IMG/VR virus record: IMGVR_UViG_3300032299_000618
Coordinates: 1-26,530 of that record
DNA: 26,530 nucleotides
Strand: one strand, 5' to 3'
Origin: a virus
In this document: one piece after another, positions 11,870-20,777 of the stretch
Layout of the letters: every line of letters begins with the position of its first letter
Numbering within the stretch: the first letter of the stretch is position 1
Program-made: the position numbers and the translations under genes
The notes under the pieces: model-generated
Database searches by the model: none
The model's input: only the letters and a program-made list of their open reading frames with translations
Told to the model about the DNA's origin: nothing

Positions 11870-13771
11870 CTAGACGTAGAATTGTTCAGATTGTTGTGAA
11901 GCGTACAGTTCATCAAGGTCAATTGTTATACGACTATCTAACTGTCGTTTAGTTGCCCATTTGTTTGGCATAAATTTTATTGCGTTGTTGTTTCTTTCAA
12001 GCCATTCACGGTTAACAAGTTCTGTGAACCATAAAGCCATAACTAAATCTGTTGGTTGACGTTTTCTCATATCTGGTTTCCAGACAATAAGTTGGTTAAC
12101 TAATGCTTTGACACCTTCAGATTTTTCTGAAGATGGAAGTTCAATAAGGTTTGAGCCTTTTACGAATTTGTTTTGATTAATCGTTCCAAAGAGGTTAGCC
12201 ATCGATGCAACGCCAAAGCCGACGTCCCACTTGTTATTACCAGTGTAATGCTCACGGAACTGGATTCCCCTTGAACTGAGAAAGTCACGTATCTGTTCAT
12301 CTTTGGTAAGATATAATTGGAAGGCATTTTTCTCCACAACAACAACATTGGGTTGGTACTTGATAGTCCAATCCTCAATAAGGTTTTTAATTTTTTGGGG
12401 GGTGGGCTCTGTCATATTTAAAGCATCTAACACATAACGTTTACGTGTTGTCATTTCTGTTGCAACAACAACTGCTGCTGTTGCACCTTCCATTGCAGGG
12501 TCAATACCCATAACAATACGAAAGTTACCTTCTTTAGGATGCCCAGGTGCGTCAGGGTTTATGACACCTGTTTTACGCATACCGTTAACGGAACCTTGGA
12601 TACATAACGCTGGGAATATGGCATCTTCTTCAACATCTTGTTGCTGATACACCATAGCCCAAGTGTTAGGTGTTACTTCTGAGCGACGTTGGAATAGTGC
12701 AGGACCATCCCACTTTTGATATAAGCCATCGGCGTCGGGTGTGGTGTCCTCATCACCATCCCAAGGACGGTCACTTCTGGACCACAACGTCACCCATTCA
12801 TTAGGGTTCTCCGCAAAATCCAATACTGCTGGCATAGCCAGATATGTGAAAGGGGATTTACCACCAGACCAATGTTCAGGATTACGGAGTTCACGATACA
12901 GGTCGTTAGACCCAATACGTGTACCTACAATCAACAGTTTACCGTTCTTACCCAATCGGGTAATAACTTCCTGTTGAAGCCATTTTATTTGTTTCTCCCA
13001 CTCGTGGGCATTAGCACCAGTGATACAATCATCAAGAATAATTAAATCAGCGCGGGCACCATAAATTTGACCACCCATACCAAGGGCCTGAATAGTAGGG
13101 TCTTTCTCAGAAGAATCCCTAGTCTCAGAACCAAGATACACAGTGTCAGTGCGCCAAGTATCAGCATCCCCCTGCCAACCACCCTCAGGGCCAAACACCT
13201 GCTGCAACTTACCCCACCTAGGGTGAGACAAACGTTGCTTAATAGCGTAAACAAACTCGCGTGCCTTATACAAAGTCTTAGACACAATGATGATACGAAC
13301 ATTAGGGTTTATAGCAACACGGAACGTAGAATAATTAATAGTTACCGTAGTAGACTTGGCGTGCTCAGGAGGAACATTAATCAACAACCTGTTACGAGCA
13401 GAAGGCTCATACACCATACTAGGATGCAACCACTCAGGCTCACCCTGCTCCAACAAAGAAATAAAATTCCTCTGATGCGGAAAAACTTTCATATCTAAAT
13501 ACTTAGACGAAAAATCCTCAAACCCAATATCAAACTTATCAGAAGCCTTAGCCCCCGACCTAACAGAATCGCGCTCCGTCCGAGCGTTATCCAAATCTTC
13601 CCTAAACTGCTTATCAGACTTAACCCAATACTTCACAGTATCAGGAGAAACCCCAGCCACCTTAGACGCATCAGCATTAGTCATACCCTGCCCAATAGAA
13701 ACAAGATAATCCTGCCTCTTCTGCAACGACGCAGCCTTACCGTGATGAAACTCCCCAGCCTTAGCAGCCAT
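11870..13771 (-). CDS. Terminase large subunit with N-terminal helix-turn-helix
   Basis: 633 residues from the ATG at 13771. Residues about 30-55 are a helix-turn-helix (MTNADASKVAGVSPDTVKYW) like those of small terminase subunits. The ATPase domain has Walker A VPPEHAKST at about 133-141 and Walker B LIILDD at about 243-248. The RNase H-fold nuclease shows Asp in VMGIDPAMEG (about 424), Glu in VVVVEKNAF (about 480) and Asp in PTDLVMALWF (about 575). It cuts concatemers and pumps DNA into the head through portal. An in-frame TTG at 13816 extends the ORF by 15 codons, but it lies inside a palindrome and has no Shine-Dalgarno, so ATG 13771 behind GATGGGA is preferred. No separate small subunit gene was seen. 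Confidence 0.92.
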   Translation of the reverse strand: MAAKAGEFHHGKAASLQKRQDYLVSIGQGMTNADASKVAGVSPDTVKYWVKSDKQFREDLDNARTERDSVRSGAKASDKFDIGFEDFSSKYLDMKVFPHQRNFISLLEQGEPEWLHPSMVYEPSARNRLLINVPPEHAKSTTVTINYSTFRVAINPNVRIIIVSKTLYKAREFVYAIKQRLSHPRWGKLQQVFGPEGGWQGDADTWRTDTVYLGSETRDSSEKDPTIQALGMGGQIYGARADLIILDDCITGANAHEWEKQIKWLQQEVITRLGKNGKLLIVGTRIGSNDLYRELRNPEHWSGGKSPFTYLAMPAVLDFAENPNEWVTLWSRSDRPWDGDEDTTPDADGLYQKWDGPALFQRRSEVTPNTWAMVYQQQDVEEDAIFPALCIQGSVNGMRKTGVINPDAPGHPKEGNFRIVMGIDPAMEGATAAVVVATEMTTRKRYVLDALNMTEPTPQKIKNLIEDWTIKYQPNVVVVEKNAFQLYLTKDEQIRDFLSSRGIQFREHYTGNNKWDVGFGVASMANLFGTINQNKFVKGSNLIELPSSEKSEGVKALVNQLIVWKPDMRKRQPTDLVMALWFTELVNREWLERNNNAIKFMPNKWATKRQLDSRITIDLDELYASQQSEQFYV

Positions 13772-13786
13772 AAAAATCCCATCATA

Positions 13787-13816
13787 ATTATATATATAAT
13801 AAAGCAGACTCTCCAA
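13787..13816 (-). promoter_or_regulatory. Candidate late leftward promoter before terminase
   Basis: Read leftward, TTGGAG (13811-13816) lies inside the 22-base dyad and is followed after 18 bases by a perfect TATAAT (13787-13792). Transcription would begin about 9 bases before the ATG, giving almost no leader. The AT-rich stretch (ATATATATAAT) makes chance matches easy, so this is tentative; the real start could lie further right, beyond the dyads. Confidence 0.3.
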
Positions 13817-13825
13817 AGAGTCTGC
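13804..13825. repeat. 22-base dyad, copy A (late-gene control region)
   Basis: GCAGACTCT-CCAA-AGAGTCTGC is a perfect 9-bp inverted repeat 32 bases upstream of the terminase ATG. The same arms recur at 20337-20358, 39 bases upstream of the leftward transglycosylase; copy A read on the minus strand matches copy B on the plus strand at 21 of 22 positions. Both lie in divergent intergenic regions with AT-rich DNA on the late-gene side. It may be an operator or activator site, or an RNA hairpin. There is no U-tract typical of a terminator on either side. Confidence 0.7.
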
Positions 13826-14095
13826 TATAAACTACCCTACAGCCTTCAATACCAGGCTGAAATAAAAACCCTTACATATATACTAATCCGTTACCATACC
13901 ATTTGGTAACGCAACAAAACAAAAAAACTTTTGAAAACCATATAACCGCAGGTCAGAACAATACACAGTTGCAGGCAAATAACCCCAAAAAGTTAAAAAA
14001 GGGACTGTTGCGTCCTAGGGTTTTGGGAGTTTAATACCCTGGGTCAAGGGTTTTAGGTGTGTGGGCTTGTGTGTGGGTTAACTATCTCCTGAGGT
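13826..14095. other. Gene-free divergent control region with small dyads
   Basis: No credible ORF lies here. Two more inverted repeats can be read: CAGCCT-N8-AGGCTG at 13840-13859 and GTTACCA-N7-TGGTAAC at 13890-13910. Around 14010-14060 there is G/T-rich DNA with a repeated GGGTTTT(G/A)GG phrase. The region separates the leftward late operon from the rightward early genes, so it should hold late promoter and operator sites. It could also contain a replication origin or packaging site, but nothing here identifies one. Confidence 0.5.
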
Positions 14096-14115
14096 TGTCT
14101 AGTACGGCCTAGACA
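14096..14115. repeat. Palindromic element, copy 1
   Basis: TGTCTAGTACGGCCTAGACA: 7-bp arms (TGTCTAG/CTAGACA) around six bases. First member of the GTCTAGTA…CTAGAC family. It lies 30 bases upstream of the -35 of the first rightward promoter, so this copy is probably not transcribed from that promoter. Confidence 0.85.
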
Positions 14116-14145
14116 CGCGTAATTCCCTCACAAAATAGGGGGTAT

Positions 14146-14174
14146 TTGACCTATGGGGGGCAATCGTGTAATGT
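14146..14174 (+). promoter_or_regulatory. Rightward early promoter P1
   Basis: TTGACC (14146-14151), 17 bases, TAATGT (14169-14174). The -35 agrees with the bacterial vegetative consensus at five of six positions, the -10 at three. The context TATTTGACY with a 17-base spacer is shared with P2, which raises confidence. The predicted transcript begins near 14181 and includes the long hairpin before the gene at 14376. Confidence 0.55.
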
Positions 14175-14282
14175 CGTTATTGTCACTCCGATTGAAGTTA
14201 AGCAAGGCCTCTCATTAGGGCTCGCACTTTCACTCCGAGAACCAGGACAGAATGAAAGAGAACTCAATAGCGTGATTACTTG

Positions 14283-14346
14283 CTTGAGATGTGCCTAATT
14301 CGTCTAGTACTCCTAGACAAGTTAGGGGCATCTCAAGGCGAGATGC
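14283..14346 (+). promoter_or_regulatory. Long leader hairpin containing palindrome copy 2, with an alternative pairing
   Basis: Arms 14283-14307 and 14313-14337 pair over 25 bp with two mismatches and two G-U pairs, closed by the loop TACTC; the core GTCTAGTACTCCTAGAC (14302-14318) is palindromic copy 2. The base of the stem (CATCTC, 14329-14334) can instead pair with GAGATG just downstream; the full alternative is GCATCTC (14328-14334) with GAGATGC (14340-14346). These two folds exclude each other, as in an attenuator or switch. It lies in the predicted leader, 30 bases before the ATG at 14376. No ligand or known RNA class is recognised. Confidence 0.55.
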
Positions 14347-14375
14347 TTGCAGTATAGAACTCAAAAGAGGTCAAT

Positions 14376-14963
14376 ATGACAAGCACTATCGAACAAGTAG
14401 AACAAGTCACACTCGAACAAGTTGTGACCTTAGTAGTCAAAGCGCATTATTCAGAACGCGCTATCTTTGACGCCATAGACGCATCAAAGACACCTATTGC
14501 CGACGCTTGCTTAGCAATTATGCAAGCCACGCATCAAGGGATGACTATTCGCGAGATTGTCGAACACCCAGCGAACCAAAGTGGGGGCAAGGCAATCGTG
14601 AACAAGGACACAATTAACCGATACCTAGCAATAGGTCGAATGATTGAACGAGTGGGGTCAGACAAGATAGATGCCGAGGGTATTAGCGTTTCAGATATTA
14701 AGTTCAATCTTGATAATGGAATGGGAATAACCGAGTTGAACAAGGTAAACAAGATTGCTCAACTCAAGGCAGTTAGCACCAAGTCTCACCCAGCAGTATT
14801 AGCCAAGCGTGCAAAGCGCAAAGCGAATACCTTGCCAAAGGACTCAAAAGCCGACAAGATTGCCGACGCAATCGAGTCAGGCAAGTTCACCGAGCAAGAA
14901 CTAGGCAAGATTGCGAACGCGCTCAAAATTGCGTACGCTAATCTAACCAAGTCAGGCAAGTAA
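14376..14963 (+). CDS. Possible DNA-binding early regulator
   Basis: 195 residues. An N-terminal helical part (LEQVVTLVVKAHYSERAIFD) leads to a likely helix-turn-helix region at about residues 45-92 (QGMTIREIVEHP, then NKDTINRYLAIGRMIERVG). A very basic linker follows (LAKRAKRKANTLPKDSKADK) and a helical C-terminus (FTEQELGKIANALKIAYANL). AGAGG precedes the ATG. As first gene behind P1, and followed by its own terminator, it is a reasonable candidate for the protein that reads the palindromic elements; that is inference. Codon use is less AT-biased than in the late genes. No family was recognised with certainty. Confidence 0.6.
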   Translation: MTSTIEQVEQVTLEQVVTLVVKAHYSERAIFDAIDASKTPIADACLAIMQATHQGMTIREIVEHPANQSGGKAIVNKDTINRYLAIGRMIERVGSDKIDAEGISVSDIKFNLDNGMGITELNKVNKIAQLKAVSTKSHPAVLAKRAKRKANTLPKDSKADKIADAIESGKFTEQELGKIANALKIAYANLTKSGK

Positions 14964-14977
14964 TCACGCAAGGACTA

Positions 14978-15015
14978 CCCCCACGAAAGTGGGGGCTAGT
15001 TCTATTTTATTTTAT
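14978..15015 (+). terminator. Rho-independent terminator after the first early gene
   Basis: CCCCCAC-GAAA-GTGGGGG (14978-14995) is a perfect 7-bp GC-rich stem with a stable GNRA-type loop. The T-rich run TTCTATTTTATTTTATTT follows closely. It ends the 14376-14963 unit 15 bases after the stop codon, making that gene a single-gene transcript. Confidence 0.85.
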
Positions 15016-15036
15016 TTGTCTAGTACGCCTAGACAA
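15016..15036. repeat. Palindromic element, copy 3
   Basis: TTGTCTAG-TACGC-CTAGACAA: perfect 8-bp arms, directly after the terminator tail and 69 bases before the -35 of P2. Confidence 0.85.
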
Positions 15037-15044
15037 TCGGTCAG

Positions 15045-15088
15045 TATGTTGTCTCTGATGTATGTTGGTTCTGATGTTGGTTCTGATG
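15045..15088. repeat. Short imperfect tandem repeats upstream of P2
   Basis: Two 16-base units, TATGTTGTCTCTGATG (15045-15060) and TATGTTGGTTCTGATG (15061-15076), are followed by a 12-base partial unit TTGGTTCTGATG (15077-15088). They end 17 bases before the P2 -35, a position suited to an activator or repressor bound to several sites. This could also be simple slippage. Confidence 0.6.
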
Positions 15089-15105
15089 TACGCTCTGAAA
15101 TATAT

Positions 15106-15134
15106 TTGACTCAAGGTTTGATGTGTAGTAAACT
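15106..15134 (+). promoter_or_regulatory. Rightward early promoter P2
   Basis: TTGACT (15106-15111), 17 bases, TAAACT (15129-15134). It shares TATTTGACY and the 17-base spacing with P1, and TTGACTCAA with P3. Transcription would begin near 15141, just before the strong Shine-Dalgarno of the gene at 15169, and would drive the micro-gene cluster. Confidence 0.6.
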
Positions 15135-15168
15135 TGTGTTAGCAAGTTAGTTCAAGGAGGAGATAGCA

Positions 15169-15354
15169 ATGCCAATACCAACAAGCAAGGTCTATCGTGG
15201 GGCAGGTCGCTTCGTGGTAGTTAGTAATGGTAGCAAGTTCAGGCAACGCAGGGAACGCAGGTTCTTCCCTGTCACAACTCGTAATGTTATGCCAACTAAT
15301 TGGTATGAGTATTACCTGTTGTTGTCTAGTACACCTAGACAGGATGGTAACTGA
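15169..15354 (+). CDS. Small basic protein, first of the micro-gene cluster
   Basis: 61 residues, Arg-rich in the middle (FRQRRERRFFPVTTRN). The Shine-Dalgarno AAGGAGGAG is excellent. The last ten or so codons (LSSTPRQDGN) are encoded by palindromic element copy 4 and its flank. The TGA overlaps the next ATG (TGATG). No family was recognised; the basic character would allow nucleic-acid binding. Confidence 0.6.
   Translation: MPIPTSKVYRGAGRFVVVSNGSKFRQRRERRFFPVTTRNVMPTNWYEYYLLLSSTPRQDGN
15323..15341. repeat. Palindromic element, copy 4
   Basis: TGTCTAG-TACAC-CTAGACA, perfect 7-bp arms. It lies in the last codons of the 15169 gene and 12 bases before the start of the 15354 gene. Confidence 0.85.
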
Positions 15355-15563
15355 TGTATCCTGAGGGTGACCCATTCTCTAAGGGTCATTGTAATAGTTG
15401 TGGGTCAAGACTCTATGACAATGATTGCTTCGAGTGTGATGTGCAATGTAATGGGTGCGATAAGTATATGTACCCTGAGAACGCCAAGTTAGATAGGAAT
15501 GATGATGCTTGGTGTGCTAAGTGTTATGCCAAACAGATGATGCTACTAGAGGAGGCATTATGA
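15354..15563 (+). CDS. Small double zinc-ribbon protein
   Basis: 69 residues with four cysteine pairs or near pairs: CNSC at about 13-16, CFEC at about 25-28, CNGC at about 32-35 and CAKC at about 54-57. This is the pattern of a treble-clef or zinc-ribbon module and resembles the cysteine-rich N-terminus of the amidoligase encoded 1.2 kb downstream. It overlaps both neighbours by a few bases. Partner unknown. Confidence 0.65.
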   Translation: MYPEGDPFSKGHCNSCGSRLYDNDCFECDVQCNGCDKYMYPENAKLDRNDDAWCAKCYAKQMMLLEEAL

Positions 15564-15700
15564 AAGTTGAACCTGTAATGCAATACACAATTACTAACGG
15601 CAAAACTAAACAAGAATATGTTGGTATTGAGGTTGGTCAATTAAAAGAATTATTGGCTAAACTTGATATTGAATATGTTGAGTTTGAGGGGGATAGATGA
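15560..15700 (+). CDS. 46-residue hypothetical protein
   Basis: It starts MKVEPVMQYTITNGKTKQEY and ends KLDIEYVEFEGDR. GAGGAGG lies about 4-10 bases before the ATG, which overlaps the previous TGA (ATGA). Strand-helix-strand composition suggests a small folded protein. Coupling on both sides supports it being real. No family recognised. Confidence 0.55.
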   Translation: MKVEPVMQYTITNGKTKQEYVGIEVGQLKELLAKLDIEYVEFEGDR

Positions 15701-15786
15701 TTAAAAATAATTGGCGTTGGTTTGCGTGGTCGCTGTTGTTTGTTGCTTCAGCGATTATTGCTGATGAAGTTAGCAGGATGTACTGA
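15697..15786 (+). CDS. 29-residue single-span membrane peptide
   Basis: Sequence begins MIKNNWRWFAWSLLFVASAI and ends IADEVSRMY. A hydrophobic stretch at about residues 9-22 behind a basic, Trp-rich N-terminus predicts one membrane span. It overlaps both neighbours by four and one bases. A short real peptide is likely from the coupling, but conservation cannot be judged here. Confidence 0.4.
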   Translation: MIKNNWRWFAWSLLFVASAIIADEVSRMY

Positions 15787-15917
15787 TGGATGATAACAGT
15801 TTCTTGTGCGAGAGGTGCAAGGTGCGTCATCCTTGGAGTATGTTAGATGGCAATTATTGGATGACAGGTTGGATGTATGCCTGTCGTCTAGTACCTACTA
15901 GACAAGGGAGGAAGTAA
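15786..15917 (+). CDS. 43-residue Cys/Trp-rich hypothetical protein
   Basis: It begins MDDNSFLCERCKVRHPWSML and contains a CERC pair that could be half a zinc site, with a third Cys near residue 33. Its tail (RLVPTRQGRK) is encoded by palindrome copy 5 and the next gene's Shine-Dalgarno. The start overlaps the previous TGA by one base and the TAA overlaps the next ATG. Confidence 0.45.
   Translation: MDDNSFLCERCKVRHPWSMLDGNYWMTGWMYACRLVPTRQGRK
15886..15903. repeat. Palindromic element, copy 5
   Basis: GTCTAGTA-CC-TACTAGAC, perfect 8-bp arms, 13 bases before the ATG at 15917. Downstream flank AAGGGAGGAAGTAATGAAAT is nearly repeated after the decayed copy at 16052. Confidence 0.85.
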
Positions 15918-16096
15918 TGAAATTATATTCTGATGAGATAGAAGAATATAAGAACGCAATAATGGAAACACCTGACAATATCCGTATCAACCTGATGTCA
16001 TTGTATGACTTGTTGGATGAGATGGTTATTGTTGGTGAGATGGATGTAGTGGTCAAGTATGTACCAGACAAGGGAGAAAGTAATGAAATGCGTTGA
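15917..16096 (+). CDS. 59-residue acidic hypothetical protein
   Basis: It begins MKLYSDEIEEYKNAIMETPD and continues with a helical, acidic, Leu/Met-rich part (SLYDLLDEMVIVGEMDVVVK). The Shine-Dalgarno GGGAGG follows palindrome copy 5. Its 3' end encodes a decayed palindrome and overlaps the next gene by 14 bases. No family recognised; small acidic early proteins of phages are often host-directed inhibitors, but nothing here shows that. Confidence 0.5.
   Translation: MKLYSDEIEEYKNAIMETPDNIRINLMSLYDLLDEMVIVGEMDVVVKYVPDKGESNEMR
16052..16069. repeat. Palindromic element, decayed copy
   Basis: GTCAAGTATGTACCAGAC differs from copy 6 (GTCTAGTATGTACTAGAC) at two positions and keeps partial symmetry. 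It is followed by AAGGGAGAAAGTAATGAAAT, almost the same start module as after copy 5. It lies 13 bases before the ATG at 16083, like the others, so it looks like a duplicated module now eroding within coding sequence. Confidence 0.55.
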
Positions 16097-16166
16097 GTGT
16101 GGTAAAAGGCTAACACCTGACGAGATTGGTTATGGTCACGATTGTGAGGTTGGCCTCAATGTCTGA
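16083..16166 (+). CDS. 27-residue mini zinc-finger peptide
   Basis: Starts MKCVECGKRLTPDEIGYGHD and ends CEVGLNV. CVEC plus HDC gives a C-x2-C…H-x-C pattern that could bind one zinc, much like the knuckle used to recognise uncharged or foreign nucleic acid in larger proteins. A GGGAG Shine-Dalgarno is present. The length makes this tentative. Confidence 0.45.
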   Translation: MKCVECGKRLTPDEIGYGHDCEVGLNV

Positions 16167-16395
16167 TGATATAGATGAGATTATCGCTGAGCGTTTGATG
16201 TCACGCGAGCATCTCAGTGCACTGATGCAGGAGGGCATTGTGTCTAATAGAAAGTTAGATATAGATGTTGACACTGTTGATGTAACACTTGACCCAATGT
16301 ACTCACCTACTTGGGTTGAGACTGCTTGGGTAACTTTAGAGGATGAGAGGGAGGTGGAAGATGAACAAGGAGATAGTGGGAATAGAGATAACTGA
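16159..16395 (+). CDS. 78-residue acidic hypothetical protein
   Basis: The ATG at 16159 overlaps the previous stop and is preceded by GAGG about 11 bases upstream; longer in-frame ORF starts lack a good site. The protein is acidic with Asp-rich stretches (KLDIDVDTVDVTLDPMYSP) and a highly acidic tail (EDEREVEDEQGDSGN). Helix at about 5-25. No family recognised. Confidence 0.5.
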   Translation: MSDDIDEIIAERLMSREHLSALMQEGIVSNRKLDIDVDTVDVTLDPMYSPTWVETAWVTLEDEREVEDEQGDSGNRDN

Positions 16396-16606
16396 TGATG
16401 GTTATCGTAGCATTGCAGGTTTATTCATTGTGAATGTCCTTGACAATGTTAAGTCTCGCAAGGGTTGGATGAAGGCTGACGCTTGCGCTTTGATAATGGA
16501 GGCAATAAAGATATGTCGTCAGATGGATGATGAAGCCTATGCTTTTCTCGATGCACAAATCAAGAAAAGATATGGTGTAACTATATCCAATAAAGATATG
16601 GTGTAA
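16361..16606 (+). CDS. 81-residue hypothetical protein with recently altered C-terminus
   Basis: ATG 16361 with GGGAGG upstream is preferred over the in-frame codon at 16343. The body is helical (AGLFIVNVLDNVKSRKGW, ACALIMEAIKICRQ). The last codons come from an 18-base direct repeat (16566-16583 and 16592-16609, 26 bases apart): the first copy reads RYGVT, the second, in another frame, reads KDMV then stop. Without the duplication the end would be RYGVTKS. It closes the P2-driven cluster. Confidence 0.5.
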   Translation: MNKEIVGIEITDDGYRSIAGLFIVNVLDNVKSRKGWMKADACALIMEAIKICRQMDDEAYAFLDAQIKKRYGVTISNKDMV

Positions 16607-16609
16607 CTA
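16566..16609. repeat. 18-base direct repeat with 26-base period
   Basis: AAAGATATGGTGTAACTA occurs at 16566-16583 and again at 16592-16609. The 26-base offset is not a multiple of three, so the duplication changed the end of the 16361 gene. Confidence 0.9.
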
Positions 16610-16636
16610 AATCATAGTGGATGACCCATATCATTA

Positions 16637-16665
16637 TTGACTCAACACCTAGAGTGTGGGATAAT
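16637..16665 (+). promoter_or_regulatory. Rightward early promoter P3 for the amidoligase unit
   Basis: TTGACT (16637-16642), 17 bases, GATAAT (16660-16665); the two hexamers agree with the vegetative consensus at five of six positions each, the best promoter in the window. It shares TTGACTCAA with P2. Predicted start near 16672 puts palindrome copy 6 in the leader of the amidoligase transcript. Confidence 0.7.
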
Positions 16666-16699
16666 AATGGTATGTGCCAATTACTAGGTCAGTAGTTGG

Positions 16700-16719
16700 T
16701 GTCTAGTATGTACTAGACA
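16700..16719. repeat. Palindromic element, copy 6
   Basis: TGTCTAGTA-TG-TACTAGACA, perfect 9-bp arms, about 28 bases after the predicted P3 start site and 25 bases before the amidoligase ATG. Confidence 0.9.
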
Positions 16720-16744
16720 ATTAGCAATATAAAGGAGGTGATGT

Positions 16745-17926
16745 ATGAGTTCTGTGGATGAAGTCGAAGCACCAAGCACACCAGTTATCTGTACTACTCC
16801 TCGTTGTACTGCTGTTGTGTCTGATTCTATAGATGATATAGATGATTCAGATGCAATAGAATATGATGGCGATTGGTACTGTGATAGTTGTGCAGCGTTC
16901 TGTGATGATTGTAGTGATTCTTACCTACCTGATGGTGGGTGGAGGTCTAACAATTCTTACTGTGATAGTTGTTTAGAAAACTACTTTCATTGTGAGAGAT
17001 GTAGTGACTTAACACACAACGACGACCACGCTAATGTTGGTGGTGATTCTTGGTGCAGTGATTGTTTATCGGATGCACATTACTGCGAGAGTTGCGATGA
17101 ATACTACAGCGACCCTTGTCGTAGGTGTAATGGCTCAGAGTTTCTAGATAATTATAGTTGGAAACCTGAACCTGATTTCTTTATGCAACCTAATTCACTA
17201 GAAGCATACTCACGATACGACCTCAGGGAATTAAAACTTTCTAACGAAATGTTTTATGGTCTTGAGATAGAGGTTGAAAGTATGGGCAACAATATACGCA
17301 ATGCTCTCAGCAAGTTGAGCGAGCATTTCGGTTCTGTTGCATACTTCAAATCAGATGGCTCACTCGAAGAAGGATTCGAGATAGTCACACATCCAATGTC
17401 ATATGAGTTTGCTGTCTCAGTTGACTGGACAATCCTTAACAAGTTAAGGGTTATGGGTTTCAGGTCTTGGGATACTAAGACTTGTGGTATTCATATCCAC
17501 TTATCTCGTAAGGGTTTCAAAGATAGGTCTCACCTGTGGAGGTTTGCCTATCTAATCAACACAAGTGAAAGACAATGTGTTGCTATTGCTGGTCGCTCGT
17601 CTCTCCAATGGTCTACATTTGCTGGTCAAAAGGAGAAGGCAGGCAAAGTTATATTAGGTAAGGACTACAACCCTGACCGATATACTGCTATCAACCTGTG
17701 CAATAGCCAGACAGTAGAAATCCGTATGTTCAAGGGTTCACTCAAACCTGAGCGTGTCCTTGCCAACATACAATTCGTGGCATCCATCGTGGAATATACA
17801 AGGGATATAACTATCCCTGATATTACTGTTGGTGCTCTGACTTGGGATACTTATCGTATCTTTGTTGAGGAAAATCAAGATAAATATAAACACATACACA
17901 ACCTAATGGTTGAGAAAGAGGTATAG
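16745..17926 (+). CDS. Amidoligase (glutamine-synthetase-fold COOH-NH2 ligase) with N-terminal zinc-ribbon array
   Basis: 393 residues behind AAAGGAGGTGA. Residues 46-128 carry seven CxxC pairs (46/49, 53/56, 73/76, 83/86, 104/107, 114/117, 125/128), a tandem zinc-binding array. The catalytic part begins at FYGLEIEVES (about 170-179), then SDGSLEEGFEIVTHP (203-217), CGIHIHLSR (247-255) and VEIRMFKGSLKPERV (324-338). These Glu, His and Arg motifs match the phage/bacterial amidoligase_2 family, predicted to join a carboxyl group to an amine using ATP. The next gene, four bases on, is a glutamine amidotransferase that can supply ammonia. The substrate (protein, peptide, cell-wall or nucleotide-linked) is unknown; the zinc array may hold it. 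Confidence 0.85.
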   Translation: MSSVDEVEAPSTPVICTTPRCTAVVSDSIDDIDDSDAIEYDGDWYCDSCAAFCDDCSDSYLPDGGWRSNNSYCDSCLENYFHCERCSDLTHNDDHANVGGDSWCSDCLSDAHYCESCDEYYSDPCRRCNGSEFLDNYSWKPEPDFFMQPNSLEAYSRYDLRELKLSNEMFYGLEIEVESMGNNIRNALSKLSEHFGSVAYFKSDGSLEEGFEIVTHPMSYEFAVSVDWTILNKLRVMGFRSWDTKTCGIHIHLSRKGFKDRSHLWRFAYLINTSERQCVAIAGRSSLQWSTFAGQKEKAGKVILGKDYNPDRYTAINLCNSQTVEIRMFKGSLKPERVLANIQFVASIVEYTRDITIPDITVGALTWDTYRIFVEENQDKYKHIHNLMVEKEV

Positions 17927-17929
17927 AAT

Positions 17930-18754
17930 ATGTGTTTGTTGCACATAGCAGAACGGAACGAATCACCAACATATGAGCAACTGAAGTGTGCGTGTTCCAA
18001 TAACCCAGATGGTTTTGGTTACGCTGTGCACACAGGTGACTCAATCATTACAGGTAGAGGTCTAGATTACGATAGTGTTATCAGACGATTTCTTAATGTA
18101 AGAGAGAGATACTCTGATGGGTATGCAATGTTTCACGCGAGACTTGCAACTCACGGAGGTATCAACAAGAACAACTGCCATCCGTTCAGGGTGGGTGGTA
18201 GTGACAAGGTTATTCTCGGTCACAATGGCATCCTCCCTGTTGATATACCAAAGGGTGACAATCGTTCTGATACTAAAATCTTTGCTGATGAGTTACTGCC
18301 TAAGGCTGGTATCGAATCACTAGATGATGATGTATTCTTTGAAGACTTGGAAAAGTGGGCAGGTGGTAGCAAGATTGCTATCCTGAACGCTAGTCCCAAG
18401 TTGGATTGCGAATTGTACATAGTAAACGAACAACTAGGTGACTGGGATAAGGGACTGTGGTGGTCTAATAGTTCATACAAGTATGACTATACTCGGTGGG
18501 CTTGGTTACCTTCCAGGAAAACAAAGTCAGATGGTGATGTAGCATCCGTCTATGATGAGGATGATTTAGATTCGTCACTTGATTTGACTTTGTGTTATGA
18601 GTGTGGTGCTACATTCACAGAGATGGCAATGATTACAGGTGTATGTGAAACCTGTGAGACCTGTATAGAATGTTACACGCACACAGATTCTTGCTTGTGC
18701 TATCAAGGTAGTGCGTCAAGCAGGGATAGTATATGGAAAGAGAAAACATTCTAA
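17930..18754 (+). CDS. Class II glutamine amidotransferase with C-terminal cysteine cluster
   Basis: 274 residues. Cys2 directly after the initiator Met is the expected N-terminal nucleophile. Family motifs follow: NPDGFGYA (25-32), MFHARLATHGG (67-77), NNCHPF (81-86) and ILGHNGIL (95-102). This Ntn-hydrolase domain releases ammonia from glutamine. Residues 222-257 hold eight cysteines (222, 225, 239, 242, 245, 248, 255, 257), probably zinc ribbons, absent from simple amidotransferases and echoing the array on its partner. It starts four bases after the amidoligase stop, with GAGG upstream, so both are made together. No synthetase domain is fused, so the amidoligase is the likely acceptor enzyme. 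Confidence 0.85.
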   Translation: MCLLHIAERNESPTYEQLKCACSNNPDGFGYAVHTGDSIITGRGLDYDSVIRRFLNVRERYSDGYAMFHARLATHGGINKNNCHPFRVGGSDKVILGHNGILPVDIPKGDNRSDTKIFADELLPKAGIESLDDDVFFEDLEKWAGGSKIAILNASPKLDCELYIVNEQLGDWDKGLWWSNSSYKYDYTRWAWLPSRKTKSDGDVASVYDEDDLDSSLDLTLCYECGATFTEMAMITGVCETCETCIECYTHTDSCLCYQGSASSRDSIWKEKTF

Positions 18755-18777
18755 CTGTCTAGGATGTACTAGACAGT
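18754..18777. repeat. Palindromic element, copy 7
   Basis: ACTGTCTAGGA-TG-TACTAGACAGT: 11-bp arms with one mismatch, the longest dyad of the family. It begins at the last base of the amidotransferase stop and lies 22 bases before the ATG at 18800. Confidence 0.88.
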
Positions 18778-18799
18778 AGAACTAACAAGGAGGAAACAA

Positions 18800-18964
18800 A
18801 TGATAGACGAAAATATTGACCCAAGAATGGCAATAGCACAAGTGTTGCGTGAGTTAAACAACCCAGAGGATGTTGATGCTTTTATGGCAAAGATAAACTC
18901 TGCTGAGGATAATGTTGACGCATACAATATCTGTATGAATACAATGATGGAGGTGAGTAGATGA
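18800..18964 (+). CDS. 54-residue acidic hypothetical protein
   Basis: Begins MIDENIDPRMAIAQVLREL and continues PEDVDAFMAKINSAEDN. AAGGAGGAAA upstream is an excellent Shine-Dalgarno. The start follows palindrome copy 7, and the TGA overlaps the next ATG. The next protein also begins MIDE. Helical, function unknown. Confidence 0.55.
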   Translation: MIDENIDPRMAIAQVLRELNNPEDVDAFMAKINSAEDNVDAYNICMNTMMEVSR

Positions 18965-19212
18965 TAGACGAAGCAACTAACGATTACCCAAAGATAAACA
19001 CAGAACATTACTCTGAATACTTGAGACTCAATGTCAAGTTAAGATACTTGCTCAATGAGGTCAACGATATGATAGAGAATGAAACATACAACCAAATCTT
19101 TGACACACTAGGTGCAGGCTTTGATGTGTGGACTGTTTGGAAAATATTAAACACACTCAACGACGAGGTGAAAGAAAGTGTCACAGAATGTGAGAGGCAA
19201 CTAACTAAGTGA
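18961..19212 (+). CDS. 83-residue helical hypothetical protein
   Basis: Begins MIDEATNDYPKINTEHYSEY, followed by Leu-rich helices (NVKLRYLLNEVNDMIENE, VWTVWKILNTLNDEVKES). Regular hydrophobic spacing suggests a small helical bundle or dimer. ATGA overlap with the gene before and GTGA overlap with the WhiB gene after. No family recognised. Confidence 0.55.
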   Translation: MIDEATNDYPKINTEHYSEYLRLNVKLRYLLNEVNDMIENETYNQIFDTLGAGFDVWTVWKILNTLNDEVKESVTECERQLTK

Positions 19213-19505
19213 ACACATCTGTTCCTGATTTTGAGAACCCTTTATGCAGGGAGGTAGGTCAAGACCTGTTCTTCCCTGAAAAGAATCAACAACAGGAAGC
19301 AATATATGCTAAGTCAATATGTAAAAAATGTGAACACATAGCCCCTTGTTTGGAGTATGGTTTACGTGTTGAAGTTAAAGGCATATGGGGTGGTGAAAGC
19401 ACAGCAGAACGAGCAAGGATAGCAAGTAGCAGGGGTATTGTAAGAGAACAATTACTTACCTCTGCTGATTTCTACACACATAAGGAGATGATACACAATG
19501 AGTAA
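19209..19505 (+). CDS. WhiB-family iron-sulfur transcription regulator
   Basis: 98 residues with a GTG start overlapping the previous TGA. Four cysteines at 13, 38, 41 and 47 (C-x24-C-x2-C-x5-C) should hold a [4Fe-4S] cluster. GIWGGES (58-64), followed by ERARIASSRG, is the WhiB turn and basic DNA-contact segment. WhiB proteins bind region 4 of the host primary sigma factor and are confined to Actinobacteria and their phages, so this gene is the best host clue in the window. Phage WhiB proteins such as that of TM4 can repress host whiB2 and block superinfection; a similar role here is inference. Confidence 0.93.
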   Translation: MNTSVPDFENPLCREVGQDLFFPEKNQQQEAIYAKSICKKCEHIAPCLEYGLRVEVKGIWGGESTAERARIASSRGIVREQLLTSADFYTHKEMIHNE

Positions 19506-19761
19506 AGATAAAGATGTTGCAAAGATGGTCAATGAAGTTTTCAGTAATGACCACGAGAAAGCATTTCAAATGTCAGACCTGATAGATAACCTGACAACTA
19601 AGGTATCTGTTCTCATAGAAGATGATGGATTATGGGAAGAAATGATAGGGTCTAAGCACGACAGAGTTATGTTTGTTGCTATGATAGGTAGTATCGCTAT
19701 CGCTATGGCACAAATGCTTGAGCCTGTAGTAGATATAATCTTTGATGATGATAAGGAATAA
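19498..19761 (+). CDS. 87-residue hypothetical protein
   Basis: Starts MSKDKDVAKMVNEVFSNDHE, with a hydrophobic stretch near residues 56-78 (VMFVAMIGSIAIAMAQMLEP) that could be one membrane span or a buried helix, and an acidic end (IIFDDDKE). AAGGAG lies about 10 bases before the ATG. It overlaps the WhiB gene by eight bases. No family recognised. Confidence 0.55.
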   Translation: MSKDKDVAKMVNEVFSNDHEKAFQMSDLIDNLTTKVSVLIEDDGLWEEMIGSKHDRVMFVAMIGSIAIAMAQMLEPVVDIIFDDDKE

Positions 19762-19764
19762 TAA

Positions 19765-19965
19765 TTGGATTGGCGTGGCATACCAACAGCAGGCTGCCCT
19801 GAATGTGGTTGCTTCTGGCTACGCATATCTGCCGTCTTTGACCCCGACACTTATGAGATTGAAGTGTGGGGTCTTGACGATGCTGAGTGTTATATGTGTG
19901 GTGCTAAACTTACAGCACCTTGCCCAGTTGACCATCCTGATAACGAACAATCAGAGACTTACTAA
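19765..19965 (+). CDS. Small zinc-ribbon protein (TTG start)
   Basis: 66 residues. Translation appears to begin at TTG behind AAGGA, three bases after the previous stop. CPECGCFWLRI (11-21) and CYMCGAKLTAPCP (42-54) form a two-knuckle zinc ribbon. Its TAA overlaps the TAG of the leftward transglycosylase, so the two genes converge with no space for a terminator. Confidence 0.6.
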   Translation: MDWRGIPTAGCPECGCFWLRISAVFDPDTYEIEVWGLDDAECYMCGAKLTAPCPVDHPDNEQSETY

Positions 19966-20297
19966 TACCAACCTTTATAGTTATGAAACCTTAACGCTGA
20001 ACAAGGTGTGCCATACCTTTGTTTAATGTAATCAAACCCTGCTTTAACTTGTTCAGGAACTCTAGTTCCTGGTTTAGTTTTCAAGACTTGAAACAAACCA
20101 TATGCTGACGACTTTGGATTATCTGCATAAGGATTCCAACTTGACTCACGAAAAATTAGTTCATCTAAACAATCCCATTGACGCTCAGACCAACCTTCAA
20201 ACTCTGCTACCTTACGCACATATGAACGAGATGATTCCTCTGACCAACGAGAAGGGGCTTCAGGTTGCAATAGTGAACCAAACAATAACTCTAACAT
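19962..20297 (-). CDS. Lytic transglycosylase / endolysin-type lysozyme domain
   Basis: 111 residues. WDCLDELIFRESSWNPYADN (41-60), SSAYGLFQ (63-70) and DYIKQRYGTPCSAL (89-102), with terminal GWY, match actinobacterial transglycosylase domains of the SLT / resuscitation-factor-adjacent type; Glu51 in RESSW is the likely catalytic acid. It would cleave peptidoglycan at lysis. No signal peptide or second binding domain was seen. CTGGAGG supports the ATG. It is a lone leftward gene inside rightward early genes, with a 22-base dyad 39 bases upstream matching that before terminase, which suggests it is switched on with the late genes. Confidence 0.8.
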   Translation of the reverse strand: MLELLFGSLLQPEAPSRWSEESSRSYVRKVAEFEGWSERQWDCLDELIFRESSWNPYADNPKSSAYGLFQVLKTKPGTRVPEQVKAGFDYIKQRYGTPCSALRFHNYKGWY

Positions 20298-20336
20298 CTG
20301 ACCTCCAGATTATTTGTTATTTATTATTACATACAA

Positions 20337-20358
20337 GCAGACTCTTTGGTGAGTCTGC
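20337..20358. repeat. 22-base dyad, copy B (late-gene control region)
   Basis: GCAGACTC-TTTGGT-GAGTCTGC, perfect 8-bp arms, 39 bases upstream of the transglycosylase ATG. It is the partner of the dyad at 13804-13825. AT-rich DNA follows toward the late gene (TTGTATGTAATAATAAAT read leftward), a possible -10 region. Confidence 0.75.
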
Positions 20359-20365
20359 GTTACTT

Positions 20366-20407
20366 GTTGTTATCTTTTTCAAGTATAACAACCTATTTGT
20401 TTTTTTG
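20366..20407 (+). terminator. Possible rightward terminator
   Basis: GTTGTTAT-N11-ATAACAAC (20366-20392) is a perfect 8-bp but AT-rich stem. The T-rich run CTATTTGTTTTTTTG follows. It would stop rightward transcripts that run through the transglycosylase from the WhiB region. The weak stem keeps confidence moderate. Confidence 0.4.
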
Positions 20408-20432
20408 TCTGTTACGACACACCGTGTATCTT
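20405..20432 (+). promoter_or_regulatory. Weak candidate promoter for the DNA-metabolism operon
   Basis: TTGTCT (20405-20410), 16 bases, TATCTT (20427-20432), four of six consensus matches in each. It lacks the TTGAC(C/T)-17 form of P1-P3. A promoter is expected between here and 20577, but this one is uncertain. Confidence 0.25.
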
Positions 20433-20471
20433 ATGATGGTGTTGTCGGTGTCTATGCTACTATGAATAAGT

Positions 20472-20573
20472 CGCTGGGGTTTGCTGACCTCTTTCACCCA
20501 GCGTACTTCAAAGAGGTAACAGGTTGGGTTTCTCCTCCGTTCTCGCCTGTTACCTCATCTAATTCTTGGAGGA
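20472..20573 (+). promoter_or_regulatory. Structured leader of the DNA-metabolism operon
   Basis: Three pairings can be read: CGCTGGG (20472-20478) with CCCAGCG (20497-20503), ACCTCTTT (20487-20494) with AAAGAGGT (20510-20517), and GAGGTAACAGG (20513-20523) with CCTGTTACCTC (20546-20556), an 11-bp perfect stem. The second and third compete for GAGGT. The loop of the third contains TCCTCC (20533-20538), complementary to the Shine-Dalgarno GGAGGA (20568-20573). This could hide the start site or act as a switch. No known RNA class was recognised. Confidence 0.45.
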
Positions 20574-20576
20574 ATT

Positions 20577-20777
20577 ATGTTAAAGGTTAACGGCTACGAA
20601 GTCCCAGACCACGTGTCTTATTCAAGTTTAACTACTTGGTTAGCGTGTGGATATCAGTACTACCTCTCTCGTATTCAAAAGGTTGAGGAACAACCTGCTG
20701 TGTGGTCGCTTGGTGGTAGTGCTGTTCACCTTGCAACAGAGAACTATGATTTACAGAAATGGGAGTCAGAGCAATGA
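20577..20777 (+). CDS. Cas4/RecB-like nuclease, N-terminal fragment
   Basis: 66 residues behind TTGGAGG. SYSSLTTWLACGYQYYLSRI (14-33) is the opening of the actinophage Cas4-family exonuclease; Cys24 corresponds to the first iron-sulfur ligand. WSLGGSAVHLATENYD (43-58) is the following family helix. The frame then stops, and the matching remainder is encoded at 21154-21813. The intact family is about 280-300 residues, so this is the first quarter. The TGA overlaps the next ATG (ATGA). It may be a subunit of a split enzyme or a disrupted remnant; it has no catalytic residues alone. Confidence 0.75.
   Translation: MLKVNGYEVPDHVSYSSLTTWLACGYQYYLSRIQKVEEQPAVWSLGGSAVHLATENYDLQKWESEQ

Follow-up and report, generated by a model that had tools for sequence, protein, structure and literature searches.

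Why would a virus carry the same short palindrome seven times in one part of its genome and nowhere else? The question is raised by IMG/VR record IMGVR_UViG_3300032299_000618, positions 1 to 26,530, called the window here. Seven near-identical copies of GTCTAG-N5/6-CTAGAC lie within 14,097-18,774, and none is found elsewhere in this 26.5-kilobase (kb) record. The palindromes are probably DNA operators. Their regulator would be a dimeric helix-turn-helix protein, encoded at 14376-14963, that acts mainly as a repressor of the early genes, with the specificities of protein and site diversifying together. Related uncultured actinobacteriophages have a large set of quickly diverging regulators at this locus, to which it would belong. 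Covariation between regulator and palindrome, together with a rule that links one residue to one base, argues for operators of a phage-encoded regulator.

In the window, the pattern GTCTAGTA N0-6 CTAGAC gives 9 strand matches at seven places, while 100 dinucleotide shuffles give 0; the same pattern read backwards, used as a control, also has 0 matches. The seven copies listed by a first-pass annotation of the sequence are thus real, and the starts it gave are right to within 0-3 bases. It had also confined them to 14.1-18.8 kb, and no full site lies outside. Half sites with at most one mismatch are barely above chance (27, versus 20.3 +/- 4.2 in shuffles). The array begins immediately to the right of the point from which the terminase gene runs leftward and the early genes run rightward. 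The regulator gene and the seven sites are as follows, with distances to ATG codons measured in nucleotides (nt) from the end of the site.

14097..14114, + strand: putative operator site 1, GTCTAGTACGGCCTAGAC, in the divergent terminase/early-gene region; its centre lies 40 base pairs (bp) before TTGACC, and it is identical in the close relatives L127, L128 and L208.
14302..14318, + strand: putative operator site 2, GTCTAGTACTCCTAGAC, 57 nt before the regulator ATG and also at the tip of a leader hairpin.
14376..14963, + strand: regulator gene, 195 amino acids, putative helix-turn-helix; the proposed binder of all seven sites.
15018..15034, + strand: putative operator site 3, GTCTAGTACGCCTAGAC, upstream of a promoter-like sequence at 15106-15134.
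15324..15340, + strand: putative operator site 4, GTCTAGTACACCTAGAC, within the end of the open reading frame (ORF) 15169-15354, 13 nt before the ATG at 15354.
15886..15903, palindromic, no strand assigned: putative operator site 5, GTCTAGTACCTACTAGAC, 13 nt before the ATG at 15917.
16701..16718, palindromic, no strand assigned: putative operator site 6, GTCTAGTATGTACTAGAC, after a promoter-like sequence at 16637-16665, 26 nt before the amidoligase ATG at 16745.
18757..18774, - strand (reversed orientation): putative operator site 7, 25 nt before the ATG at 18800.

At site 7 the + strand reads GTCTAGGATGTACTAGAC, and the GTCTAGTA arm is therefore on the - strand. The four distances to start codons are close to the 12-25 bases proposed earlier.

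The palindromes are kept in the closest relatives. All seven sites are conserved in L127, as are the six that fit on the contig of L128 and the two that fit on that of L208. Conservation at the same place is seen in 87% relatives. The arms remain constant and the flanking sequence drifts, in agreement with the earlier view that symmetry is being kept. Site 2 of L208 is 16 nt long, which means that the spacing of the sites varies by up to 2 bp. A decayed eighth copy had been proposed at 16052; it has no counterpart at the matching place in L127 or L128 and for that reason is not counted as a site.

More distant relatives can be found through the amidoligase gene. A search with the window's protein gave 80 records; in 78 of these the identity is just 30-42%. 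Most carry their own dispersed family of short palindromes, differing in sequence from that of the window; examples are GTATGATAATCATAC, GTCCGATAATCGGAC, GCCGTATAATACGGC, GTCGGGTTAGCCCGAC, CTAACAGTACTGTTAG and GTTTCTATTAGAAAC. At least three copies of the record's own palindrome are present in 67 of 81 records, against two at most in 405 shuffles. Among 113 distinct contigs, 93 have at least three copies, placed around the same early genes. Their consensus sequences number 45 and their exact copies 539; the 20 contigs with fewer than three were left out of later counts. A later fresh set shows a dispersed family in 30/30 loci. Left out as repeats were 23 second-search loci that matched first-search contigs and 46 of 76 later loci that shared half their 60-mers.

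The sites of the relatives are palindromes of 14-20 bp, usually 4-10 per early region. Their density is 1.45 copies per kb in the early region and 0.049 outside, a difference of about 29-fold. The commonest base has a frequency of 0.93-0.99 inside the palindrome and about 0.5 at 3-12 bases outside. Identity stops sharply at the edge, so the repeats are not larger than the palindrome. Between relatives, the palindrome sequence is swapped wholesale.

Some other candidates were set aside. L038 and L067 have a local TAGACA array rather than a dispersed family. In a scan of viral contigs with a single pattern, nearly all of the matches listed were one per contig; these went unused because chance would be expected to give them (an estimate based on 14 fixed bases and the size of the collection). 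The Streptomyces phage relatives FlowerPower, WRightOn and Immanuel3 have 3-4 scattered matches with unequal spacers and no family. Window positions 13600-20600 found no match in a DNA search against phages, and a literature search, with bioRxiv outside its scope, found nothing on these palindromes.

If the palindromes are operators, a gene nearby should change with them. Clustering of ORFs finds a protein of about 200 amino acids beside the first sites. It falls into a family present in 40 loci, another present in 11, and the window type. It was detected in 73 of the 93 contigs with a palindrome family; the remaining 20, and 3 of the 30 fresh loci, were dropped from regulator counts. Across 54 loci, regulator similarity follows operator similarity beyond what amidoligase similarity explains (partial Spearman 0.551; the maximum of 999 permutations is 0.126). 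On shared loci the regulator outscores all other gene families tested. All 126 pairs of regulators that are at least 50% alike have operators at about 0.8-1.0 similarity. An example of the converse can be found in L150 and L157, whose amidoligases are 89% identical, whose regulators are 43% identical, and whose operators are different. The first-pass annotation had offered the 14376 product as a candidate binder, a role for which this covariation argues well.

The regulator sequences also suggest how a site may be recognized. In the larger subfamily, the motif S-H-V-X opens the second helix of a putative helix-turn-helix (in L145 the helices span 79-90 and 100-115, and X is residue 104). When 1,116 column-by-base combinations were scanned without bias in 23 representatives, the top score went to X paired with the operator base some five positions off centre (z 10.8; the next score is 7.8). 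Among 84 regulators, adenine goes with glutamine in 22/22, cytosine with glutamate or aspartate in 28/33, and thymine with proline, serine, arginine or lysine in 29/29. Glutamine-adenine and glutamate-cytosine pairs are textbook contacts.

The rule predicts cases that were held out. By letter, 25 of 27 are right, or 26 if lysine is grouped with arginine: glutamine with adenine in 9/9, an acidic residue with cytosine in 12/13, and thymine with four prolines and one lysine. Advance predictions for L289-L343 were right in five of the six testable cases, and L302 has serine where proline was expected. Regulators with GCCGTA (aspartate) and GCTGTA (proline) operators, about 50% identical to each other, differ both in this base and in this residue, and at further residues too. 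Operators were registered from their centre. An earlier alignment by outer ends made GTCGGC with arginine an exception; registration from the centre moved it to thymine, and that class was fixed after it had been seen.

Several observations weigh against reading the palindromes as operators of such a regulator, or limit how far the rule reaches. The five rule-breakers are all five of the TCCGTTT-type regulators, which have proline with cytosine. When corrected for descent, cytosine with glutamate or aspartate is supported by five independent pairs, with none disagreeing and one neutral (p 0.0625), and adenine with glutamine by 2/2 (p 0.5). This strict phylogenetic test is not significant, which leaves the rule as a suggestion short of proof. 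It was counted on the larger subfamily, and the 16 loci that best match the window-type profile were excluded. The window's own protein has no significant family match, and a comparison of the window-type profile with the larger regulator set finds no significant similarity, which leaves common descent of the two sets unsupported. The window's spacer differs by 1-2 bp, which is unusual for a rigid dimer. Of 437 sites, 170 are centred inside ORFs with homologues, ORFs being called mechanically, so that not all sites are intergenic. Some sites lie upstream of -35 boxes, which leaves room for activation. Finally, 20 records, 19 of them of 38-42 kb, have neither a tyrosine or serine recombinase (integrase) nor a ParA-type ATPase (PF13614).

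The window protein nevertheless probably belongs to the diversifying regulator set, judging by its synteny, its size, its putative helix-turn-helix and its inclusion in the covariation test. In the window-type set (A2), 6 of 18 members give a LacI-like helix-turn-helix signal (best 7e-7), and the profile matches the Lac repressor headpiece with an E value of 0.0024. A length of 195 amino acids leaves little room for the LacI ligand-binding domain. The larger set has no significant family match in the scans made, and for this reason a structure would be informative.

What the regulator would do can be approached from where its sites stand. Three further features surround its gene.

14146..14174, + strand: promoter-like TTGACC...TAATGT, assigned by pattern match.
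14283..14337, + strand: leader hairpin around site 2, with 25-nt arms that are 84% complementary and an RNA fold z of -5.8.
14978..14995, + strand: terminator-like hairpin followed by a T-rich stretch, 3' of the regulator gene; read directly from the sequence and missed by the scan.

The hexamers at 14146-14174 are unchanged in L127 and L128; in L208 the last base of the first hexamer is the sole difference. Next to site 1, the 18-bp segment TAATTCCCTCACAAAATA at 14120-14137 is inverted in L127, L128 and L208 while its flanks stay aligned, a tiny inversion between CCTA/TAGG-like ends. Another palindrome, GTTACCA...TGGTAAC, occupies 13890-13912 in the divergent intergenic region; it is unlike the operator family and unchanged in four aligned sequences. 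In many relatives (L145 at 3847, L184 at 9465, L205 at 552, and others) one operator follows the apparent 3' end of a phage tRNA gene. Scans for tRNA genes and Rfam families, made on the window, found none.

The association with gene starts extends to the relatives. Of 600 sites, 261 are followed at 8-45 nt by an ATG that has a ribosome-binding site and faces the way the early genes run; random placement would give 84, and for the reverse direction the count is 13. Sites also go with promoters. Where two sites are 85-160 bp apart, a promoter-like sequence lies between them in 43 of 76 pairs, versus 4.8% of control segments. In 49 of 91 site-promoter matches the -35 box is 65-85 bp before the site centre, which places the site downstream of the start point.

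These positions fit repression with roadblocks, as some sites bracket promoters and others precede start codons. The regulator may occlude or bracket the main early promoter. At start-proximal sites inside the operon, the bound protein might block either initiation or elongating RNA polymerase, and a single protein could thereby turn down the whole early region. Sites 1-3, which surround its own gene, imply self-control; the rightward early genes would be under its control too.

The same protein and sites could instead serve to activate early or middle promoters. This is unlikely. Some site centres lie about 13, 22, 29 or 40 bp before a -35 box, where class I/II activators can sit, but sites downstream of the start point and sites just before start codons are both awkward for an activator. 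These four spacings may reflect helical phasing.

A second alternative, and quite an unlikely one, is a dispersed centromere or replication-control array of the parS/KorB kind, with secondary effects on transcription. It would explain several dispersed sites near one regulator gene, and it draws on structure models of the window protein and of L145 (mean predicted local distance difference test scores 68.9 and 79.1). Among the weak structural matches of both models, ParB/KorB/Noc DNA-binding domains recur at Z 2.9-4.1. These values are in the tool's stated noise range, and the likeness is a lead only. The top VIA-align Z values are only 4.3 and 5.2. Foldseek finds no significant match for either model in PDB or for the L145 model in BFVD, and its match to ParB 6s6h is weak (E 0.85). 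As regards an N-terminal CTP-binding domain of the ParB kind, the 25 Pfam families displayed for the 18 members of A2 include no ParB family, nor do those for the window protein. The absence of a ParA-type ATPase from the 20 records argues against a centromere, as does the way in which the sites track gene starts and promoter-like sequences. A parS-like palindrome, GTTTCACGTGAAAC, does precede site 1 by about 10-20 bp in L141 (8180) and L149 (8090), and is found at the corresponding place in L139 (7970). It is placed as if a host ParB were used or titrated.

The palindromes might also function in the transcript, as RNA hairpins for processing or translation control. The first-pass annotation had offered this role beside those of operator and silencing site; covariation across relatives favours the operator, and a general hairpin role is very unlikely. 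Start-proximal placement and the variable loop length in the window would suit RNA. However, most families have palindromes whose symmetry extends across the centre, where a loop cannot pair. Imperfect copies contain 63 G.U and 58 A.C mismatched pairs, about equal numbers with no clear bias to the transcribed strand, which disfavours an RNA role because RNA pairing would favour G.U. The residue-base rule, too, is of a DNA-binding kind. Site 2 is partly an exception, as it also caps the leader hairpin. There, three pairs have changed on both sides among four sequences, a number that shuffles reach in 46/500. The 3' strand of this hairpin, GCATCTC, could alternatively pair with GAGATGC just downstream, before the regulator gene (14283-14350).

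That a host-encoded regulator binds the sites, with the phage protein covarying through shared regional ancestry, is highly improbable: covariation tests cannot fully remove linkage, and a small family of about 45 amino acids (F26) also reaches 0.58 on 16 shared loci, but the phage regulator scores 0.78 on the same loci, operators of close genomes differ where their regulators differ, and dozens of specificities are hard to square with one host protein.

Operators of a phage-encoded, mainly repressing regulator are thus the preferred explanation, and the remaining question is why they should diversify. The window encodes WhiB (19209), a terminase, a DnaB-like helicase, an amidoligase and a class-II glutamine amidotransferase domain. 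The terminase shares about 55% identity with those of the Planktophila phages AprF5 and AprE7, which marks the window as coming from an actinobacteriophage; a Nanopelagicales host is likely. The amidoligase (16745-18754 in the window) and glutamine-amidotransferase genes accompany the operator region in nearly all relatives. In bacterial genome contigs, 80 amidoligase relatives were searched; none has three or more copies of a palindrome, and no prophage carrier was found. With no recombinase or ParA found in the 20 records and no carrier among these bacterial contigs, ordinary lysogeny is unsupported.

A regulator and all copies of its site would shift specificity together, giving rise to phage types that are blind to each other's sites. 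Such blindness could be selected through superinfection immunity or through competition between co-infecting phages. For such diversification without lysogeny, interference between co-infecting or resident phages is the inference we prefer. It is tentatively proposed that a large group of aquatic actinobacteriophages, which apparently do not integrate, possess a polymorphic regulator-operator system with dozens of mutually blind types, conferring superinfection immunity or exclusion without classical lysogeny. As part of the same tentative proposal, the specificity of a type may be partly readable from one helix residue.

Immunity specificity is usually learned from pairs of isolated phages. 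Here it is approached from environmental DNA, with at least 45 operator sequences, a regulator in 73/93 contigs and a residue-base rule that predicts held-out cases. The evolution of repressor specificity, and interference among phages of abundant aquatic actinobacteria, become directly testable.

Several known systems can be compared with this one. The Planktophila phages LanE43-AprE7 and -AprF5 have 39-kb genomes, encode WhiB and lyse their host, according to an extract of PMC10202952. They belong to the same broad group as the window phage, as terminase and WhiB indicate. Unlike it, they have no regulator and no dispersed palindrome family; a palindrome scan of both gives at most four copies of CAGCAG/GCAGCA-type arms with unequal spacers. 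Their records, OX376640 (phage E7) and OX376641 (phage F5), are labelled 'Caudovirales sp. ct2KA10', and name searches miss both.

KorB of plasmid RK2, a member of the ParB family, is described in part of PMC11790492 as a global repressor with operators (OB) near and far from promoters that binds CTP and slides. The plan is similar; the weak fold likeness of the DNA-binding part in the models is within the noise range. No CTPase domain was recognised in the window protein (195 amino acids), and the 20 records gave no ParA partner.

Start-associated sequences (SAS) of cluster K mycobacteriophages had been named as a positional precedent. In the portion of PMC3203893 consulted here, these repeats stand immediately upstream of starts, the extended form (ESAS) has 17-bp inverted repeats with a variable spacer, SAS are asymmetric, and the binder is left open. 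The precedent holds for position, as the palindromes too stand just before gene starts in one direction. It does not hold for sequence: GGGATAGGAGCCC is not seen in the seven sites and their flanks. The arms and spacer of ESAS are much longer, whereas here the palindrome stands alone and a binder is proposed.

The closest parallel in working is the repressor-stoperator system of cluster A mycobacteriophages such as L5, Bxb1 and Trixie. As described in an extract of PMC6550527, one repressor uses many dispersed sites, some at promoters and most elsewhere, blocking elongation. The stoperators are 13 bp long, asymmetric and orientated, with up to 30 per genome; their consensus is type-specific, the distances of repressors and sites correlate, and motifs remain similar across the clade. 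This repressor also confers immunity, and the title of PMC9283540 gives it as a monomer. Here, too, the sites are dispersed and follow a single consensus within a genome, and that consensus changes from one phage type to another. Unlike stoperators, these sites are palindromes of 14-20 bp, with no asymmetric, orientated 13-bp form; consensuses are wholly different between relatives, and no integrase is found. The comparison suggests a system that works much as mycobacteriophage stoperators do, but is built from palindromes and from a protein that fits no named family.

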